A DNA stretch of 24,447 nucleotides from a virus. Below the pieces are notes generated by a model. The model did not search any database, had not been told where the DNA came from, and worked only from the letters and a program-made list of their open reading frames with translations. The translations under genes were made by a program, and so were the position numbers. How positions within the stretch are numbered: the stretch's first letter is position 1; the number at the start of each line of letters is the position of its first letter. The stretch is from IMG/VR virus record IMGVR_UViG_3300035158_000251, positions 1 to 24,447 of that record, one strand, 5' to 3'. This document shows, piece after piece, positions 8,250-22,204 of the stretch.

Positions 8250-8399
8250 ATGAGGATGCCAGTTTCGAGATGTCCGAATGGCAAATTCAGAATCGGAGAC
8301 GGACCATGCACCTTCTCCACGCGAGCTGCGGCTGAACGAGCTTGGGCGGCATATCGAGCAAAACACGTAGACAAGAAGGAAACGAACAATGAGTCTTAA
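8250..8399 (+). CDS. Small conserved virus protein (49 aa) between the tube genes
   Basis: A 49-residue frame between the two tube paralogues. It starts one base after the previous stop and overlaps the next gene by 11 bases. It contains RCPNGKFRIGDGPCTFSTRA followed by AAERAWAAYRAKH. I recall small phage proteins with the same pattern: a Cys, 'NGKxRIG', a second Cys about 12 residues on, then an Ala-rich helix. They appear near structural genes and have no known role. The two Cys could bind metal or each other. Confidence 0.65.
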   Translation: MRMPVSRCPNGKFRIGDGPCTFSTRAAAERAWAAYRAKHVDKKETNNES

Positions 8400-9054
8400 G
8401 GGTTGGGAAGGAGCCATCAAATACTCCAATCGTATAGTCAATGAGTCAGTGGGTATCGGAGACAACGCTGACACCACATGGGACTTGGACTATCCAGCAG
8501 TCGATGAGCTTGGTGATGTCACAGATGACCCTACAAAAATAGAGGTCTTCCTAGACGGAGTTCAACAGACTCCAACGACTGATTACACATTGGATGGTGA
8601 TGGTGGAGCTGGGTCTGTGGGTGAGATTACATTCGTGGTTGCTCCAGGCAGCTCTGTTGTAATCACAGCGAACTACTATCGCTACCAGGACATTGGTTAT
8701 GTCCAATCCATCAGTCCATCAGTCAGCAACAATCTGGAGAATGTCTATGAGATTGGTTCTCGTGAGCCAGTCGAGATTAAGGAAGGAAACATCGACATCT
8801 CTCTCGACATGACTCGTTGCTTCATTGACTTGTCACTCGTGTCAGTGGTCATTCACAAAGACAGTGATGCAGATGAATGGCTCGCACAGAACGAGTTCGA
8901 TATTGAGGTCTATCCAGCAGGAGACACTGGTGGAAATCCCCTCATGATTATCCGAGGCAAGTTCGGTGACTACTCGCTTGACATGTCTCAGGATGGAATC
9001 CTCATGGACTCCATCACATTCACAGGCAGAACTATCACACTGACCACAGCATAA
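8389..9054 (+). CDS. Tail tube protein, paralogue B with an inserted Ig-like domain
   Basis: A 221-residue relative of the 7808 gene, with about 75 extra residues (roughly 21-97) placed after the shared start MSLKGWEG. The insert runs from VGIGDNADTTWDLDYPA through DVTDDPTKIEVFLDGVQ and YTLDGDGG to PGSSVVITANYYR and looks like an independent beta-sandwich of a type common in phage proteins. A close copy sits in the tail hub gene at 12513. The rest matches the tube core. It could form decorated rings of the tube, or the tube's end. Two tube genes suggest a mixed tube or a specialised terminal ring. Confidence 0.72.
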   Translation: MSLKGWEGAIKYSNRIVNESVGIGDNADTTWDLDYPAVDELGDVTDDPTKIEVFLDGVQQTPTTDYTLDGDGGAGSVGEITFVVAPGSSVVITANYYRYQDIGYVQSISPSVSNNLENVYEIGSREPVEIKEGNIDISLDMTRCFIDLSLVSVVIHKDSDADEWLAQNEFDIEVYPAGDTGGNPLMIIRGKFGDYSLDMSQDGILMDSITFTGRTITLTTA

Positions 9055-9880: not shown

Positions 9881-10253
9881 GAACATGTTCAAGGTCGAGG
9901 CAGTTGGACTCCAATTTCTTGAGCAAGCATTTGACACTCTCTCTGAATCCATGCAGAAGAAGTCAAAACAAGAGATAGGTGATTCAGCAACTGAAGCTGC
10001 TCGCATTGCGAAAATCCTGGTGAGGGTTGATACTGGTTTCCTTCAGTCACAGATTTTTGTCAGAGAGCTTCTAGGATTCAACAAGTTTGAACTGGTCGCC
10101 GCAACTCCATATGCCGAATACGTTGAATATGGCACAAGTCGAATGCCAGCATTCCCATATATTCGACCTGCGATTGAACAAGTTGGAAGGGAACTTCCTC
10201 GCAAGATTCTCAAAGAAGTCATGTCTGATGTCAGGAGAGTTCTACCCAAATGA
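9870..10253 (+). CDS. HK97 gp10-like tail completion protein
   Basis: A 127-residue protein with the hallmark of the HK97 gp10 family: VRVDTGFLQSQI in the first half, then YAEYVEYGTSRMPAFPYIRP and a helical end. The family joins tail and head or acts at the neck of long-tailed phages. Start choice: TTG at 9870 has AGGTGA nine bases before it, and the in-frame ATG at 9885 has no better site, so I keep the TTG. It is joined to the tape measure gene by ATGA. The gene's place after the chaperones rather than before the tube is slightly unusual. Confidence 0.82.
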   Translation: MVAKNMFKVEAVGLQFLEQAFDTLSESMQKKSKQEIGDSATEAARIAKILVRVDTGFLQSQIFVRELLGFNKFELVAATPYAEYVEYGTSRMPAFPYIRPAIEQVGRELPRKILKEVMSDVRRVLPK

Positions 10254-12520
10254 GCGAGAATGCCACAGGAAATGTCAGAGTAGTCCTTCAAGCTGTGGAC
10301 AATGCATCATCCACAATGCAGAAGGTAAAGGTCGGAATGACTCAGCTCTCAGGAGCATTATCTCAACTTGGTGGCGGCTTCGCATCTGTCAACAACATCA
10401 TGCAGGGATTCGCGGCTGGTGGACCGTGGGGAGCTGCCGCAGCTGCTATCGGTGAAATAATCGGGCAGGCTGAGAAGGCAGTCAGAGTTTTCGCTCAGTT
10501 CGAGACCGCAATGGTGGATGTTGCAGCTGCATCAGGAGCATCGGGTGAGGAACTCATCCAGCTCAGGAAAGACCTCCAGGAAGCTGCTATGGCCGCAGGA
10601 GTCGAGTTCGGAGTGGGTGCAACTGAAGCCATGAAAGCAATGGAGTCTCTGGTGAAGGCAGGTCTCGAAGGAGAGGAAGCCATCACAGCACTCAGCGCAG
10701 CTCTCACGATGGCACAGGTAGAGGGAATGGCAACTGCTGAAGCGGCTGACCTCATGGTTGGAATCATGGGAATGTTCCAGATGTCAGCTGAAGAAGCCGC
10801 ACATGCAGTCGATGTGATGGTCAATGCATCAATCGCTGGAATCGCAACATCCAATGAGTTCGCAACTGCCCTGTCATATGTTGGTGGTCGCGCCAACCAG
10901 CTTGGATTCAGTCTGGAAGAGACCACAGCTGCACTTGTCGCCATGAACAACCAAGGTATAGCGGCAACCACAGCAGGTCAGTCATTGAACATGATGATGA
11001 CCCAGATGATTCAGAAGTCTGACACACTTGGGTTCTCACTCTATGATTCACAGGGGAACATGCTGTCCCTCGCAGAGATTTCTGGAAATCTGGTGGACAA
11101 GCTCAACTCATTCTCAACAGAGGCTGAACGAAATGCCTACCTCACTTCAGTATTCGGAGCTCGTGCAGGTCGAGCCGCAGCTGCACTCGCAGGTTTCGGA
11201 GACACAGGAGCAGAAGTGCAAGCCGCATTGGAAGCACTCACTGAGGAGATGGAGGAAGGAGGAACTTCAGCTGACATCCTGGAGCAGAAGCAAGACACAC
11301 TCGCAGCTACAGGAGACCGTCTCGCGGCCATGTTCGAGAATCTCTACATCATGATTGGTGAGATTCTTGCTCCAGTCTTGGAGTGGTTCGCCAACTTCAT
11401 CGAGCAATACATCATTCCGTTCATTGAGGACATCATTCCTCCAATCGCGGCAGTGGTCAATGCCTTCCTGACATTCATCGACACCATCTGGAAGCTTGGA
11501 CAAATCATTGCTCACTACCTCAAGCCAATCATCGATGGAATCATGGCATTCCTCGGACCACTCATCGAAGCCATCAAAGCTGTTGTCGAGGCAGTCATGT
11601 TCCTCTTCGGAATCCTGGTGGAAGCTGTGAACACAGCCTATGATGAGATTACTCAGACCAATGATGCCATTGTCGATGACATGGAAGACACAGCTGACGA
11701 AATCAATGAGATTTCTGAGGAGGAGCAAGCTGAATATGACCGACTCGCGGCAATGTATCAGGAATATGCTGACTCACGCATGGGTGTGAATGACCAGATT
11801 GTCGAAGACACTGAGGAGACCGTGGATGCTGTCACTGATGCATTCAACAACATGGACCAGACAGTCGTTGGTTCCATGGAGCAGATGGCGGCAAATGCCA
11901 CAGCGGCAATCCAGCAGGGTCTCGTTGGAGACGCTCAGGATGCAATCCATGACTTTGTTGAGTGTTCGACCACCAAGCAACAAGAGATGGTGGAGGACAT
12001 CGATGGCTACTTGGAAGACATGCGAGAGCAATATCGTGAGAACATGATTGAGATTCGCAGACTCCAAGATGCAGGAATGCACCGAGAAGCAGAGCTCCTC
12101 ATGAAGCACAACAACGAGCTCACTCGTAAGATGGACCAGCTTCTCATCTGGCGAGACATGATTCTTCAACAGCAATGGGACTCGACAACTGATGCAGTCA
12201 GGCAGGCACTCATGGACCAATATGGTCTCTATGAGCAATACTACTCAGACCTGACTGGATTGGATGAAGAGTTCTTCCCAGACCCTGTTGAGCCTATCAT
12301 CGACCCAATCAGAGAACTTCCATTCGATGAGATTGACCCGATTAGATTCCCACAGCCAGACCCAATCACCATTGCTCCAACAGTCGGGAATGTTCAGCTA
12401 GACTTCCATGAGCCAGTGGACATGATTGATGCTCGAAGGATTGCTGAGGATGTCTATTCGGAGCTTCAGAAGATTCAGGAAGAACAACAGAGACAGAGAG
12501 GTTATCAGAGAAATGTCTAA
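10250..12520 (+). CDS. Tape measure protein (TP901-type)
   Basis: A 756-residue protein. The N-terminal ~330 residues match the TP901/PhageMin_Tail core: AQFETAMVDVAAASGASGEE, an Ala-rich helical stretch, GGRANQLGFSLEETTAAL, AAGQSLN, and an ERNAYLTSVFGARAGRAAAAL end. This is followed by a long hydrophobic region (about 350-470) with several possible membrane helices, then a charged helical tail to residue 690 and a Pro/Asp-rich end. Such proteins set tail length and may help the DNA cross the membrane; the hydrophobic centre fits. The stop overlaps the hub gene by eight bases. Confidence 0.92.
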   Translation: MSENATGNVRVVLQAVDNASSTMQKVKVGMTQLSGALSQLGGGFASVNNIMQGFAAGGPWGAAAAAIGEIIGQAEKAVRVFAQFETAMVDVAAASGASGEELIQLRKDLQEAAMAAGVEFGVGATEAMKAMESLVKAGLEGEEAITALSAALTMAQVEGMATAEAADLMVGIMGMFQMSAEEAAHAVDVMVNASIAGIATSNEFATALSYVGGRANQLGFSLEETTAALVAMNNQGIAATTAGQSLNMMMTQMIQKSDTLGFSLYDSQGNMLSLAEISGNLVDKLNSFSTEAERNAYLTSVFGARAGRAAAALAGFGDTGAEVQAALEALTEEMEEGGTSADILEQKQDTLAATGDRLAAMFENLYIMIGEILAPVLEWFANFIEQYIIPFIEDIIPPIAAVVNAFLTFIDTIWKLGQIIAHYLKPIIDGIMAFLGPLIEAIKAVVEAVMFLFGILVEAVNTAYDEITQTNDAIVDDMEDTADEINEISEEEQAEYDRLAAMYQEYADSRMGVNDQIVEDTEETVDAVTDAFNNMDQTVVGSMEQMAANATAAIQQGLVGDAQDAIHDFVECSTTKQQEMVEDIDGYLEDMREQYRENMIEIRRLQDAGMHREAELLMKHNNELTRKMDQLLIWRDMILQQQWDSTTDAVRQALMDQYGLYEQYYSDLTGLDEEFFPDPVEPIIDPIRELPFDEIDPIRFPQPDPITIAPTVGNVQLDFHEPVDMIDARRIAEDVYSELQKIQEEQQRQRGYQRNV

Positions 12521-14294
12521 GTATCGAGTGACGATTGATGGAGTCGATGTGTCCCAGAAACTGGTGGATGAAGGATTCACTCTCTCTTGGGGGGACATGG
12601 CTTCCAAGCGAGCATCAGTGAAGCTCTATGAACAGCTCTACAATCTGAACGATGAGCTGATTGTCTACTTCGATGACACAGTTATCTTCCAGGGTGACAT
12701 CGACAAGGAGTTCGTGAGACCTGGAGAGTTCATCTGCTATGCATCTGACCAGATGATTACTCTCGCTGATGTGATTGCCAGAAATGTAGACCATCGTGAG
12801 TATTCACTCCGGCGAAACGAGGATGTTGGAACTGGTGACAACATTGATACCACATGGGAACTCGACTATCCAGCTCTTGACAGATCATTGGCAATCACCG
12901 ATGATGAGAACGACATCGAGGTCTTTCTTGATGGAGTATATGTTGACCCTGCCGATTACACCCTCGATGGTGATGGTGGAACTGGTGGAGTCGGACTCAT
13001 CACCTTCGACACAGCTCCTGGAAGCTCAGTCGAAATCACATGCAACTACAACGCGAAGGAACCCGTTCAATATGAGGTCATCTTCAAAGACCTCCTGTCC
13101 TACTACTACCCTGGAGTCTTCGATGTCAGCAATGTGGATGACACGAACAAGACCTGCTTCTATGTTGACCTGACTGACAAGTCCATCTGGGAATGTCTCA
13201 AGGTTCTCTCACAGAGAGCAAACATGGCAATGTGGCTTGAACCTCCAAACAAACTGTATTGGAAGACTCGCGACTCAGTGTCATCAGACTTCTCAGCAAT
13301 CTATGGTCAGAACATCAAAGACCTGTCAATCACTCGTGACAACTTTGTGAAGACCAGAGTAATCGTTCTCATCACGCTTCCAGGAGGAAGGACTGGCGAG
13401 GTGATTGTGGGAACAGGGTCTCGGACTGCCATTGTCAATGATGACACCATCAACAACGAGACCGATGCAACCGCGAGAGGTCAGGCTGTTCTCGATGAGC
13501 TCCAGGACATTCAGATTCGAGGAGAGATTGAACTCACTGAGTCTCGGCATGACCTGATTCCTGGAACTACCTGTGTCTTGAATGCTCCTCAGTTCGGATT
13601 CGAGAACGAGACCCTTAGAATCAAACATGTCAATGTGACTCCGAAGGGAACCAAGCTCTCACTTGGTCTCATGACTGCAATGGTGGAAGACCAGATTGTT
13701 GACTTCGAGGAGAGAATCAGGCGGCTTGAGAATCGAGGCATGACTTGGAGAGTCGCATGTGACACTTCCCAACAGACCATGGCTGGATGTGTTGTGGTCT
13801 GCGAGGCCGAATGTCAGATAGCATGTGAGACCGTTGCAGGATGTGTGACTGCATGTCAAGAGGGTCTCTGTCAGACTGATTGCCAGACCTCTCTTCAAAT
13901 CACCTGTGTCACTGGTGAACAGATTTGTGGAGATGAGGGAACATGTCAGATTGCCTGCCAGACGGGACATCGATGTGAGACCACCTGCCAGAGCCAATGC
14001 CAAACAGAGTGCCAGACCGAGTGCCAATCTGAATGTCAACAGTCATGTCAAGGAGGTTGCGAGACCTCATGTCAAGCAACATGTGAAACTGCCTGTCAGA
14101 CTGGTTGTGAGATAGTGTGCAACACTGGTTGTGAGACCTCATGTCAGACCACTTGTCAACAGAGCTGTCAATCCGTCTGTGAGACTCAGTGTCAGACTGC
14201 ATGTGAAGTGAGCTGTGATGGCTCATGTCAGGTCGCATGTAAGATTGGATGTCAGGAAGAGAGTCTCTGTTGTGGAACTATCGGACCAGACTAA
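12513..14294 (+). CDS. Tail hub/baseplate protein with a long cysteine-repeat C-terminus
   Basis: A 593-residue protein starting at ATG 12513; the longer upstream frame lies inside the tape measure gene, and GAGGT sits about nine bases before 12513. Residues 1-410 look like a tail hub of the gp27/gpD type, starting YRVTIDGVDVSQKLVDEGF, with an inserted Ig-like domain at about 103-183 that matches the insert in tube paralogue B. From about residue 410 it changes to a 184-residue tail with 39 Cys. The last long run has 24 Cys spaced exactly four residues apart, each followed mostly by Gln or Glu (CETSCQTTCQQSC style). No known virus structural domain that I recall has this. The next gene encodes a radical SAM/SPASM enzyme fused to a glycosyltransferase, so the tail is probably a modified substrate. 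A metal- or disulfide-rich fibre is the alternative. Confidence 0.82.
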   Translation: MSKYRVTIDGVDVSQKLVDEGFTLSWGDMASKRASVKLYEQLYNLNDELIVYFDDTVIFQGDIDKEFVRPGEFICYASDQMITLADVIARNVDHREYSLRRNEDVGTGDNIDTTWELDYPALDRSLAITDDENDIEVFLDGVYVDPADYTLDGDGGTGGVGLITFDTAPGSSVEITCNYNAKEPVQYEVIFKDLLSYYYPGVFDVSNVDDTNKTCFYVDLTDKSIWECLKVLSQRANMAMWLEPPNKLYWKTRDSVSSDFSAIYGQNIKDLSITRDNFVKTRVIVLITLPGGRTGEVIVGTGSRTAIVNDDTINNETDATARGQAVLDELQDIQIRGEIELTESRHDLIPGTTCVLNAPQFGFENETLRIKHVNVTPKGTKLSLGLMTAMVEDQIVDFEERIRRLENRGMTWRVACDTSQQTMAGCVVVCEAECQIACETVAGCVTACQEGLCQTDCQTSLQITCVTGEQICGDEGTCQIACQTGHRCETTCQSQCQTECQTECQSECQQSCQGGCETSCQATCETACQTGCEIVCNTGCETSCQTTCQQSCQSVCETQCQTACEVSCDGSCQVACKIGCQEESLCCGTIGPD

Positions 14295-14310: not shown

Positions 14311-16182
14311 ATGGTAATTGCAGAAGAAATTAAGGATGGAGAGTCTCTCTTAGCGAGAGCAGATGTGAAGAAGAAAGAAAAGGAAGAGTGCAGTCCACGG
14401 AAGAAACATCTCGTGGGTCTCTGGCTCACTGATGCCTGCAACCTGAGATGTGACTATTGCTTCCAGGACAAAGACCACATTCCCAAGAACATGAATCAAG
14501 AGACCCTGGATGCGACAATCAAGTTCGTCAATGAGATTGAACCAATGGGCGTTGCATTCTTTGGTGGAGAACCACTCATTGCAAAGAGACAGTTCAAACA
14601 GGCTCTCGCAGAGATGAAGGTTCCCAAGTTCTATCTCACCACGAATGGAACATTGCTCGATGATGACATCCTCGATTGGATGGAGATATTCAAAGTACAT
14701 CTCAATCTGAGCCTGGATGGAATGAAGGACACACAAGACAGATGGCGAGACGGTTCTTACGATGCAATCATAAGGAACCTTCCTCGAATCCTCAGACATA
14801 TGGACATCGTTGGTGGAGAGGTCTTGATGACCATGGTGATGGAGTCTCAGCTCTATCGGAACGTGAAGCATGTGAAGGAGCTTGGCTTCCCCTCAGTCTA
14901 TATCAACCTGCTCGACCCATATGGAACTCAAGTGAGGAACGAGCCTGAGAAGGTTGACATCTTCAAGGAGCAATATCGCAAAGTCATCACAGAGCTTCGA
15001 GAGAAGAAGTTCAGGATTGATGACTATGACCGATGGGTGAAGCTCTTGAAGAACCCAAACTGGAAGGGCGGCGAATGTGGCTTCCACAACAGTGGACTTG
15101 GCATCTCACCAGATGGTCTTCTCTATCCCTGTCATCGTGGACCTGAACTCGGACCTGAGTATTCATTCGGAAGTGTCTTCGAGGGGATTGATGAGAAGAG
15201 GATGCAGGAAGTGAGGTCTCTTGGTTGGCATCCAGACGATTGCAGGTCTTGTGACCTCGCGTTCAATCAGTGTCCCGTTTCATGCTATGGTGAACATGGC
15301 GAGTTTGGAAAAACAGTCCATCCAGTCCACTGTCTCTATGAGAAGGCAAAGGCTGAGGTCGTTGCAGAGGTGGCAGGAATCTCTATCACTCCAGAGGCCA
15401 AGGCTGACTTCAATGTCATGGAGGATACGCGACTGATTGTTGGAACTCTGGTCGCTCCGCACAAATACTACATCCTTCCTCAGTTCCTCAAGAATCTCGA
15501 CAAGATGCAGTTCCCCGAGGTCACTGACTACTACTTCATTCTCGACTATGGAGACAATCGGACTTATCGACTCATCGACCTCTGGCTCAAGAACAAGATT
15601 CCATTCGCGCCATATGAGAGGAAGATTGTCAGGAGATTCAAGACAATCAGAATCCCGACCCAATCTGATGACATCGTGATGGACAGGATAACCAGAGCTC
15701 GGAACCTCCTGCTCAATCAGGCATTGCAGGGAACCTACACTCATCTGATGTGGTTGGACTCAGACATCATTGCTCCTCATGACACTGTGCCAAAGCTCCT
15801 CGCTGTGAATGATGCAATCGCAGGAGCTCTCGTGGAGACCCGTCAAGAGTTCGAGCGAGAGACCTGGTTCAACACCTACATGGATGCAGGCAATGGTTCA
15901 TGGCCTTCCAAGACAGACTTCATCAAGGGTGACATCATCACTGTCGATGCAACTGGCTGTGATGCTGTGATTATCAGAAGAGACGTTCTGGAAGATGTTG
16001 GTGTCTACGATTACAGGAGATATGACCATCCAGATGGACCAGCTGGGGAAGACATGCTGTTCTGTCTGAGAGCAAAGGCACTTGGTCACAAGACTCGCAT
16101 CCACACTGGAGTTCATCCAAGACATCTTGGGATTGCAGATGTGGAGCTCACGAGTTCGGTCATCTATGAACGACTTGCTTAA
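14311..16182 (+). CDS. Radical SAM/SPASM enzyme fused to a GT-A glycosyltransferase
   Basis: A 623-residue two-domain protein. Residues about 32-250 form the radical SAM domain with CX3CX2C (C43, C47, C50 in DACNLRCDYC) and GGEP (85-88). A SPASM region follows (C256, C274, C311, C314, C321, C325, C341), as in peptide-modifying enzymes that use auxiliary iron-sulfur clusters. From about 360 on there is a GT-A-type domain: VGTLVAPHKYYILPQFLKNL, the DxD motif DSD (483-485 in WLDSDI), a TGCDAVIIRRDVLEDVG loop, ED (580-581 in GEDMLFC) and a late HTGVHPRHLG. Start: ATG 14311 with GGAGA before it; the longer frame overlaps the hub gene. It follows the Cys-repeat hub gene by 16 bases, which points to post-translational modification of that tail. 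Confidence 0.87.
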   Translation: MVIAEEIKDGESLLARADVKKKEKEECSPRKKHLVGLWLTDACNLRCDYCFQDKDHIPKNMNQETLDATIKFVNEIEPMGVAFFGGEPLIAKRQFKQALAEMKVPKFYLTTNGTLLDDDILDWMEIFKVHLNLSLDGMKDTQDRWRDGSYDAIIRNLPRILRHMDIVGGEVLMTMVMESQLYRNVKHVKELGFPSVYINLLDPYGTQVRNEPEKVDIFKEQYRKVITELREKKFRIDDYDRWVKLLKNPNWKGGECGFHNSGLGISPDGLLYPCHRGPELGPEYSFGSVFEGIDEKRMQEVRSLGWHPDDCRSCDLAFNQCPVSCYGEHGEFGKTVHPVHCLYEKAKAEVVAEVAGISITPEAKADFNVMEDTRLIVGTLVAPHKYYILPQFLKNLDKMQFPEVTDYYFILDYGDNRTYRLIDLWLKNKIPFAPYERKIVRRFKTIRIPTQSDDIVMDRITRARNLLLNQALQGTYTHLMWLDSDIIAPHDTVPKLLAVNDAIAGALVETRQEFERETWFNTYMDAGNGSWPSKTDFIKGDIITVDATGCDAVIIRRDVLEDVGVYDYRRYDHPDGPAGEDMLFCLRAKALGHKTRIHTGVHPRHLGIADVELTSSVIYERLA

Positions 16183-20800: not shown

Positions 20801-21636
20801 CAGTCAACACACTTGCTCGATTTGTTACAGACACAACGACCATCGGAAACTCAATGGTCTCTCAGAATGCGGCTGGCACTCAGCTCACAGTTGGAACAAT
20901 CGTGTCAGGCACTTGGCAGGGTTCAGCAATCTCGAACACCTACATCTCAGGTCTGAATCAGAACTGCACCACTGGAAGCACTCCGACCTTTGCAGGAGTG
21001 AACATCACTGGTGGACCGTCTCTCAGTGGAACAGGACTTGATATGAACACTCATGCCATCACTGAACTGACCAACATCACCATGACTGGCCATGTCAGAT
21101 TCTCGGGAACGGGTTCAGCTTCTGGAACTGATGGCTACTGCACCATGGGTGAATATGCTGATGGAGTCCAGTTCTTCGAGCCAACAGCTGGAAGTCAAGG
21201 TGGTTCAGCCTTCAGGATATACACACAACTGAGTCCCAACGGTTGGATTATCGACACATCCACTGGAGACAACATCTTCTTCGGAGAGAGCATCTTCCCT
21301 GTCACATCAGCCACTGGTGAAGACATCGGTTCAGCTTCTCACTATTGGGATGATGTCTATGCAGATGCTTACTATTACAAGACTGCTCCAACATCATTCG
21401 ACCATCTGGATGACCTCGCAATCCTAGAGACCATGCACTCCACGAAGGAGGGTCAGCTCAACTTGGAAGAGGTTCCAGAGGAAGTCTACACGAAGGATGA
21501 GTTTGTGAACTATGCCAACATGCAGGGATTCATCATCGGTGCAACTCGCCAGCTATATCTGAGATTCAAGGAGCAGGAGAAACTTGTTGCTTGGCTCATT
21601 GATGAGGTGGAGAGGTTGAAGGAAGATGCTAGCTGA
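17845..21636 (+). CDS. Large tail fibre/receptor-binding protein with self-chaperone-like end
   Basis: A 1263-residue protein, the longest in the window. Around residues 30-240 is a beta-sandwich like LamG/concanavalin lectins (FAGDNFVGESLEGHWKK, GTYQFAWLNSQLPFP). A second jelly-roll with PAGRYRFIIRAKDSN follows near 550, like carbohydrate-binding domains. From about 690 there are fibre-type Gly/Thr/Ser-rich repeats (GTVNTLARFVTDTTTIGNSM, AGTQLTVGTIVSGTWQG). The end has DIGSASHYWDDVYADAYYY and a coiled coil (LYLRFKEQEKLVAWLIDEVE), similar to the endosialidase-type chaperones of phage fibres. It is probably the main receptor binder and recognises host surface sugar. It overlaps the next gene by 11 bases. 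Confidence 0.8.
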   Translation: MPAHEIAFPVGSYNIYPPVPVVNRSGKDGNVPVARIFAGDNFVGESLEGHWKKESENNPAAWFTAKLNAGSVELNSRSSAAGTYQFAWLNSQLPFPMLQDSYIDVHLEVPAVTPTYEIFSFFVIAASSGEADYRRQSDLLEVWLSRSTGGANNIRVRKEVGGTSTFIYARSEVTNNEGTFRIKFRPTDAKIDVYFHDGSGAVVEGSDKLTLTDDTYDLDFDIGYPALEVAMAETTERVVISDGITVNIPDSGFSYRQPPADKGKGDAKVYDQMGTATESDWHRVYSNDHDYAGDMVIENGLIRLIIDEAANNGLKLYHWTGSAYVQYNEFLLFRLDDDAVNCTVPHLDVVHSVTPESVSVRVRMTNTSSPDDSNNILVDITMERGRYHIEADIEEANPKQDIRLMFYDTTNRRFQYLGDNFVGDADLTISGSNTVMTDNFMMAVDDAGPDFIPYVASNEKPTTSFYSYQGSYLAFLNIDVLDFPDLKLYIGVMPFSDIDDLVRECEIDGSGVTTNAPDDVSDGTASGGNKLQLDALNEYWQYIWTTDNLPAGRYRFIIRAKDSNQVADDFGINAYNQTDSVYISEDQGIKTFTLTGSWAYYSVIFEINADDSGDTLRVNAKKMTAGANTIDIDHILIVPLGNGESFPQDLAHSEMRSKAKNFRLMDATTYQVFAGVGLGYGIPDIAYTDAMAVAAVESVATLTATGAWTIGSLTLTTIPAGTADYDKFLVSDSGVIKYRTGAEVLSDIGAAATGHDFDTHSGNLDLVDIGDYGQGKLIRGGASDWEALALGTQNYVLKAGASNFSWGQVDFSEITGTLPSHGESVHTGDILPDADQTTANSITIGTNLTIFRDLLVSSTTGNLEVAPNSSNRTMYGVGFPSGTQDESAWRCANASDQLNYGLIGLRVNGATAYLEVGEVGTGTKPTQTNVLSLGDPIDICGSITVDASGHVTKIGQSTHTTDYFLKWDGAKAVWASAPGTIGGSGTVNTLARFVTDTTTIGNSMVSQNAAGTQLTVGTIVSGTWQGSAISNTYISGLNQNCTTGSTPTFAGVNITGGPSLSGTGLDMNTHAITELTNITMTGHVRFSGTGSASGTDGYCTMGEYADGVQFFEPTAGSQGGSAFRIYTQLSPNGWIIDTSTGDNIFFGESIFPVTSATGEDIGSASHYWDDVYADAYYYKTAPTSFDHLDDLAILETMHSTKEGQLNLEEVPEEVYTKDEFVNYANMQGFIIGATRQLYLRFKEQEKLVAWLIDEVERLKEDAS

Positions 21637-22204
21637 GACTGAAATCCTGGAAGCATATGCCGCTGTCGAGCTGACTCCTTCCCTCGTTGTACTTGGTGGC
21701 TCACGAGCCTTCGGATATGGTCTCGCGAGCTCAGACCATGACTACTTTGGTTATCACTTTGAGACCGAACCAGAGCTCATCGACATTCTAGTGAACAATG
21801 TGAAGATTGAGTCCAAGCCGCATCACTCGGTCATGTCACTTCTCTCAGACCCTCATCCATATCGGGTTGTCTACAATCTCACGAACTGGTTGTGGTGCGA
21901 ACCAATCTATCAGACCACTGAGGCAGAGACCCTTCGCACTGCCATCAGGTCATTCTTCGATGCTGACAGAGACCGATTCATCTCCAGGTTCGAGCAACTG
22001 GTCGATGACCTCAACAACATCTCGGTTGACCATGATGGGAAGTTCGACAAGCGATTCCGTAAGTGGAGAGAGACCGTTCACATCATCTTGGTCGCACACC
22101 ATCTGAAGACCACTGGAGACCTCGAATGCTCTTGGAAGACCCTCAAATCACTGTATTCAGTGGTGTTGAAGGACACTTTTGATAGAAAGTTTATAACTGA
22201 ATAA
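21626..22204 (+). CDS. Nucleotidyltransferase of the Pol-beta-like superfamily
   Basis: A 192-residue protein with GGSRAFGYGLASSDHDYFGY near residues 24-43. This is the GS-R-x-x-G ... D-x-D nucleotidyltransferase motif, with D37 and D39 as the likely metal-binding acids. Length and motif fit COG3541-like predicted nucleotidyltransferases, which occur in phages including T4-type viruses, often with unknown substrates. It starts inside the fibre gene (21626 versus stop 21636), with GAGGTTGA upstream, so it is co-translated with the fibre. It could add nucleotides to RNA or to protein (for example the fibre or a host component). The role is undetermined. Confidence 0.78.
   Translation: MLAETEILEAYAAVELTPSLVVLGGSRAFGYGLASSDHDYFGYHFETEPELIDILVNNVKIESKPHHSVMSLLSDPHPYRVVYNLTNWLWCEPIYQTTEAETLRTAIRSFFDADRDRFISRFEQLVDDLNNISVDHDGKFDKRFRKWRETVHIILVAHHLKTTGDLECSWKTLKSLYSVVLKDTFDRKFITE

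Follow-up and report, generated by a model that had tools for sequence, protein, structure and literature searches.

A viral protein joining a radical SAM/SPASM domain to a glycosyltransferase behind a cysteine-repeat tail gene: a candidate two-step virion maturase

What use might a tailed virus have for a single polypeptide that carries both a radical SAM/SPASM domain and a glycosyltransferase (GT) domain, and that is encoded directly behind a tail gene whose product ends in a long run of regularly spaced cysteines? The question is raised by the virus record IMGVR_UViG_3300035158_000251 of IMG/VR, analysed here over its whole length of 24,447 nt (the window), which is probably a fragment of a virus genome. 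Profile searches identify in it the head and tail module of a tailed virus, with a prohead protease, an SU10-like capsid protein, a neck protein and a tape measure protein. The tape measure gene directly precedes the tail gene, and the ATG of the fusion gene sits 16 bp past the stop of the latter at 14294. The features of the locus are the following.

10250..12520, + strand: tape measure protein, marking the tail module (phrog_1533, 6.1e-59)
12513..14294, + strand: tail gene, 593 aa, proposed substrate, named "hub" for its position after the tape measure gene
13743..14288, + strand: C-terminal tract of the tail protein, 39 Cys, consensus C-[EQ]-[TSV]-[GSAT]
14311..16182, + strand: fusion protein, putative radical SAM/SPASM maturase plus GT-A glycosyltransferase, 623 aa (single open frame; profiles, model)
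14311..15336, + strand: radical SAM and SPASM half, residues 1–342 (PF04055; PapB; CteB 5wgg)
14437..14460, + strand: CX3CX2C motif, C43/C47/C50 (invariant in radical SAM alignments)
15076..15333, + strand: SPASM region, seven Cys between residues 256 and 341 (radical SAM alignments)
15337..15420, + strand: interdomain linker, residues 343–370 (by difference)
15421..16179, + strand: GT-A type glycosyltransferase domain, residues 371–623 (Anp1 below cut-off; phrog_1574, 1.9e-9; fold Z 16.6)
15757..15765, + strand: DSD motif, D483/D485 (both Asp invariant in 22 rows)
16045..16053, + strand: GED motif, residues 579–581 (invariant in 22 rows)

The initial annotation had read this frame as one protein uniting both domains, naming a CX3CX2C motif, GGEP, seven SPASM-region Cys, and DSD and ED motifs, and it was right on each point: the frame is open from 14311 to 16182, and its translation carries C43-x3-C47-x2-C50, GGEP at 85–88, Cys 256, 274, 311, 314, 321, 325 and 341 as well as both GT motifs. 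The codon usage of either half resembles that of the neighbouring genes, which gives no hint of an assembly chimera. Scans of the record for promoters and terminators stayed near chance level, and it contains no Rfam match and no tRNA. Elsewhere in the window, an ORF at 21626–22204 shows a GGSRAFGYG...SDHD motif that by eye is like Pol-beta type nucleotidyltransferases; Pfam gave no profile match for it.

The Pfam profile Radical_SAM (PF04055) matches the N-terminal half at 6.6e-16 with 59.4 bits, over its cut-off of 29.5, and together with the invariant CX3CX2C motif and the fold this places it in the radical SAM superfamily. Three alignments, with 15, 23 and 5 further radical SAM proteins, show little or no variation at the three core Cys and at most of the SPASM Cys. 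Enzymes of the SPASM subfamily share the Cys order CX9-15GX4C - CX2CX5CX3C - C, and the fusion follows it with C256-x12-G269-x4-C274, C311-x2-C314-x6-C321-x3-C325 and C341, one spacing being 6 instead of 5; the Pfam SPASM profile itself scores 0.016, below cut-off. The best NCBIfam profile is that of PapB (NF047865, 1.4e-41), whose 142.9 bits lie below the curated cut-off of 340, and the same holds for the SCIFF maturase TIGR03974 (94.5 bits, cut-off 425) and for TIGR04115, the maturase of CXXX-repeat targets (3e-18, 66.4 bits, cut-off 350). The last family is named for a CXXX-repeat target, and here too a CXXX tract is encoded next to the enzyme, in the gene 16 bp upstream. The CcpM and nif11 maturase profiles, both under their cut-offs, are also among the nearest, and sulfatase maturase profiles of NCBIfam match as well. 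Judged by family, this half thus appears to be a radical SAM/SPASM protein but one that reaches no named maturase model. The predicted structure agrees, CteB (5wgg) being the best solved structure by sequence (5.7e-20) and by fold (1.6e-18), with anSME structures just behind it in the fold ranking and BlsE and viperin further down. A viperin-like defence function (PADLOC pVip) was considered and rejected, as the viperin profile covers residues 36–142 alone, the common core. The whole-protein model was built with radical SAM rows, and its GT part (pLDDT < 50) is unusable.

Folded alone, the GT half gave a model of modest confidence (mean pLDDT 65) that matches COLGALT1, LH3, Mnn9 and polypeptide GalNAc-transferases with Z up to 16.6, among the matches listed. 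With a conserved DSD and GED in addition to this Rossmann-like fold, the assignment to the GT-A type made in the initial annotation is supported within the limits of such a model. Across 22 GT rows no variation is seen at D483, D485, G579-E580-D581 or H605, and Anp1 (PF03452) matches at 4.4e-6 with 26.8 bits, below its gathering cut-off of 28.8. Neither the earlier suggestion of an S-linked sugar on Cys nor that of an order of two steps finds support here, and the model is closest to collagen and Mnn9-type GTs. SunS was not among the matches listed for it by fold or sequence.

Within the C-terminal 185 residues of the tail protein there are 39 Cys, and 29 of the 38 Cys–Cys spacings are exactly 4, far beyond chance. 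The residue after the Cys (+1) is Gln in 20 and Glu in 9 of the 39 units. Searches of the tail protein against profiles, the PDB and 50,697 phage records returned no match, and its one relative found is encoded on a collinear contig (L541, record 3300029813_000020, 17.5 kb) with 36–63 % amino-acid identity to the window. There, too, a radical SAM gene comes next after the tail gene; its product is 56 % identical, and the contig end cuts it at residue 161. The two tail proteins share all 39 tract Cys but 66 of the 146 other tract residues (45 %); of four N-terminal Cys, one is shared. Within the tract units, +1 is identical in 29 of 39 cases, +2 in 13 and +3 in 10, and the retention of every Cys and of most +1 residues against fewer of the others indicates that selection keeps the Cys and the Glu or Gln following it. 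The same preference is seen over 40 CXXX proteins, 38 of them viral and two from Bathyarchaeota: when leading C[EQ] runs are set aside, 77 % of 838 units have E or Q at +1, with mostly T/S/V at +2 and G/S/A/T at +3. As an aside, 12813–13070 of the window encodes an inserted tail protein domain of ~90 residues that resembles part of the protein at 8389–9054 and is absent from the L541 tail protein.

Whether such tracts keep company with radical SAM genes in general was assessed in viral contigs by looking for CXXX proteins with no assumption about an enzyme, using TGY at every twelve bases and five C[EQ]xx units, and in a second scan using a mixed C[EQ]T-C[EQ][VIM] pattern that returned 39 stretches; in-frame, non-monotonous repeats were retained by script. 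PF04055 was found in 30 of 35 CXXX records of the first scan (whole records; among the matches listed). The script-chosen C[EQ]xx records by themselves account for 22 of 27, likewise among the matches listed and with one match below the family cut-off, while the other eight (8/8) had been picked by eye from ten non-EQ loci after their radical SAM matches were known, omitting L024 and L073. The second scan added 15 of 19. None of the 50 controls has the domain (Fisher p 4e-18 for the first CXXX set), these being first-scan records that had matched through low-complexity DNA and that differ from the CXXX records also in composition and lineage, beyond the absence of a tract. They are the first 50 first-scan loci in neither CXXX list, among the matches listed; loci from L058 onward were left out, among them L161 with a weak radical SAM match. 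L044, where a CAC-type repeat lies beside a radical SAM gene, and L024 belong to neither the CXXX nor the control set, and L291 is nearly identical to L217. Restricting the comparison to records of 10–70 kb leaves 19 of 22 CXXX records against 0 of 38 controls. In 18 of 20 loci the CXXX and radical SAM genes lie within 2.2 kb of each other on one strand, ten of them within 100 bp. Seen from the enzyme, a CXXX gene accompanies 20 of 69 viral radical SAM loci related to that of the window, a set in which some records overlap those above. A radical SAM match is missing from 9 of the 54 CXXX records, one of which is 54 kb long.

The pair is not confined to viral contigs and occurs also in bins assigned to Bathyarchaeota (two), Clostridiales, a Deltaproteobacterium, Kiritimatiellaeota and Phycisphaerales; in the two Bathyarchaeota bins no other window gene was matched in the stretches compared. 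Where CXXX proteins or their neighbours match a family, it is mostly one of tail or baseplate proteins, and in one case that of Hoc-like head decoration proteins. Inteins in radical SAM genes of CXXX records sit at the core Cys motif in two genes and, by eye, at SPASM Cys sites in one; intein insertion points as a rule mark essential sites.

Several individual loci deserve mention in their own right. In L275 (4954–6642), the CXXX tract is carried by a protein strongly matching Hoc-like decoration proteins (phrog_10993), and the radical SAM gene overlaps its gene by one base. A Phycisphaerales chromosome (L453, 3649–5631) encodes a CXXX protein with 144 Cys and, by eye, a twin-arginine-like signal in front, separated from the radical SAM gene by two genes. 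L446 (9109–12091), L447 (8555–11887) and L448 (5841–9082), from two Bathyarchaeota bins and one Clostridiales bin, share a CXXX family, a radical SAM gene and a small ORF of 67–109 aa. Two or three radical SAM genes stand close together in the CXXX loci L268, L269, L271, L272 and L284, and the second enzymes of L268, L269 and L271 form a deep branch of their own in the tree. Apparent intein-bearing viral radical SAM genes are L221 3744–6179, L403 367–2751 and L282 7169–9706. The PHROG family phrog_6085 matches 4 of 79 proteins scanned, and its match in L286 (7552–8931) falls inside the Cys tract, so the family may describe the tract itself.

We propose that the fusion is a bifunctional virion maturase that would crosslink the tail tract through thioethers and glycosylate the same protein. 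Like the ranthipeptide synthases PapB and CteB, the radical SAM/SPASM half would reductively cleave SAM and take an H atom from a side-chain carbon within the C-[EQ]-x-x tract of the tail protein, which is synthesised immediately ahead of it. Joining of the Cys sulfur to that carbon would yield a ladder of short thioether staples, whose partner would most likely be the beta or gamma carbon of a nearby Glu or Gln, or Thr. The GT-A half would then add sugars to the same tail protein, as COLGALT1 and LH3 do on collagen repeats, to leave a rigid, redox-proof, glycosylated tail-tip element. The initial annotation had likewise placed both activities, in turn, on one target. The first part of this has held up well: the recurring pairing and the constraint on the tract Cys make it very probable that the radical SAM half acts on the neighbouring tract. 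We consider thioether formation probable to a lesser degree, as the nearest radical SAM families, PapB and CteB, are thioether synthases, while Gln outnumbers Glu at +1 of the window tract and no NCBIfam thioether model reaches its cut-off on the fusion; the part of the PapB paper accessible to us (PMC9413430) does not report use of Gln. Glycosylation of the same tail protein we favour only slightly. Since the three claims are not independent of each other, the statement as a whole is given an even chance.

What else might the radical SAM half do? Another chemistry on the tract, such as an alpha-thioether (sactionine), the conversion of Cys to formylglycine as by anaerobic sulfatase maturases, or a C–C crosslink, with the GT possibly using the new group, would fit the strict Cys conservation, which suits any Cys chemistry, and the sulfatase maturase models and anSME folds that follow so closely on CteB. 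We regard it as improbable, given that PapB and CteB are best by sequence and fold and that the E/Q constraint at +1 favours a link from Cys to a side chain over Cys oxidation alone. Some radical SAM enzymes have sugars or nucleotides as substrates, and the tract could be a disulfide or metal-binding rod while the fusion serves a small molecule or nucleotide sugar, for instance as a sugar enzyme feeding its own GT. BlsE and viperin do turn up further down the fold ranking, and the core is matched by viperin profiles, but the full set of seven SPASM Cys, the affinity to PapB and CteB and the tight pairing with CXXX genes regardless of GT presence make this very unlikely. Hardly credible is a bystander origin, in which a host-derived metabolic gene pair fused by chance and has nothing to do with the tail: the fusion is known here from one instance only, but radical SAM genes recur in the CXXX records (among the matches listed) with none in the controls, adjacency is conserved, and a relative at 54–56 % identity retains the gene order.

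The role of the GT half is the more delicate part of the proposal. In 9 of 50 CXXX records a GT9 domain lies 1.05–1.78 kb from the radical SAM domain, compared with GT9 anywhere in 2 of 50 controls (Fisher p 0.05, presence alone), and a GT2-like family is found in 7 of 50 CXXX records against 0 of 50 controls, the profile having been built from five of these seven. One well-supported clade of 12 contains all ten GT-adjacent radical SAM proteins. The window enzyme stands outside it on a long branch whose placement the tree leaves unfixed, and since a tree joining it to that clade is not rejected (AU p 0.205), we make no claim that the GT link arose independently. A relationship between the fused GT and the GT2-like neighbours was not apparent (HHalign probability 27 %). 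The family of the fused GT itself occurs in 3 of 50 CXXX records and in just as many controls (3 of 50), which counts against the bifunctional reading, and its relatives, 280 of which were found among 600 viral stretches, had no radical SAM or CXXX gene beside them in any of 80 viral loci with a fused-type GT. These figures speak for a division of labour in which the radical SAM half modifies the tract and the GT works on another virion protein or a surface glycan of the host, or serves to mask receptors, and the fusion does no more than couple expression. We take this to be unlikely on the whole, if the most serious competitor, for the GT is fused to the tract enzyme 16 bp behind the tail gene, and GT9 and GT2 recurrently neighbour the radical SAM gene in other CXXX loci. 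The glycosylation that the initial annotation had assigned to the shared target thus stays plausible, from these neighbours in one lineage and from the fusion itself, which suggests a shared pathway for both halves, with the unenriched fused family counting against it. In L541, the contig ends before any GT could appear.

A second fusion was not found among the 54 CXXX records. In all 28 of the 35 first-scan CXXX records that match the window protein, the match stops at residue 356 or earlier, and in a script-based check the extra length of long radical SAM ORFs came from inteins, upstream frame extensions or tails with no GT motif. A search of viral contigs for close relatives of the full protein gave six stretches, none confirmed, and tblastn against 50,697 phage records matched 36, all within residues 5–342 and none covering 80 % of the query. 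We found no account in the open-licence PMC literature of this fusion, of the viral CXXX–radical SAM pair or of virion proteins as targets of radical SAM enzymes. Within the scope of these searches, the initial remark that no virus protein of this architecture is known stands.

Small peptides are the main known substrates of radical SAM/SPASM maturases, whereas the evidence here points to large virion structural proteins as substrates in many viruses and on some chromosomes. If this is true, virion parts contain crosslinks that are covalent and redox-proof and that would escape both structure prediction and routine proteomics, the class would amount to a new type of virion maturation, and the fusion, the first such enzyme with two functions, would lend itself to making stapled, glycosylated repeats in two steps. 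For the class as a whole, we tentatively suggest, at somewhat less than an even chance, that viral C-[EQ]-x-x tracts terminating tail, baseplate and decoration proteins are stapled by their radical SAM neighbour to form thioether-crosslinked rods and in some lineages glycosylated, the window encoding a one-chain enzyme for both. Phage radical SAM genes are often left as auxiliary or unknown, and a testable function is hereby offered for them.

Among known systems, PapB shares with the fusion the radical SAM/SPASM architecture, a Cys-rich repeated motif as target and the best family profile, whereas the target here is a virion protein with a C-[EQ]-x-x repeat rich in Gln, and a GT is fused to the enzyme. 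TIGR04115 resembles it as a family named for its CXXX-repeat target. CteB (5wgg, 5why) is the best PDB match of the radical SAM half by sequence and fold, and the core of its substrate family SCIFF likewise consists of a CXXX repeat, whose +1 residue is Q/K in precursors on two human-gut scaffolds that are presumably SCIFF. In contrast to CteB, the window system has neither an RRE domain, for which the 33 residues before the core of the fusion leave no room, nor a small leader–core peptide, and its tract has 39 Cys instead of six. PapB is reported to form its links between Cys and the beta or gamma carbon of Asp or Glu, with some freedom in their spacing (PMC9413430), and CteB to join Cys to Thr in SCIFF (PMC8326336).

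For the GT half, the collagen GTs COLGALT1 and LH3 are the closest solved folds among the matches listed, at 12–16 % identity; the aligned range of LH3 (276–580) we take to fall for the most part in its accessory GT-like domain, outside the catalytic one. SunS of the glycocins is a GT-A type enzyme acting on peptide Cys, and resembles the GT half in type, but it is a separate, stand-alone enzyme with no known radical SAM partner. LH3 combines hydroxylase and GT in one chain and first hydroxylates, then glycosylates collagen lysines. The proposed fusion would be alike in that a single chain oxidises and then glycosylates a repeat protein, with a different first chemistry, and by analogy LH3 is the best parallel for the two-step logic.

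A last comparison is provided by a cultured phage, Thermus phage Cumys (PQ109079), whose describing paper proposes DNA modification for the radical SAM module (PMC11437467). The radical SAM gene, in contrast, follows directly after that of a protein with a C-terminal H-x-D repeat (L456, 3928–6218), and the pair comes right after the baseplate and collar genes. The Cumys radical SAM protein itself ends in a similar repeat. Cumys thus presents a second kind of repeat and radical SAM pair, alongside the CXXX pairs to which the window belongs.
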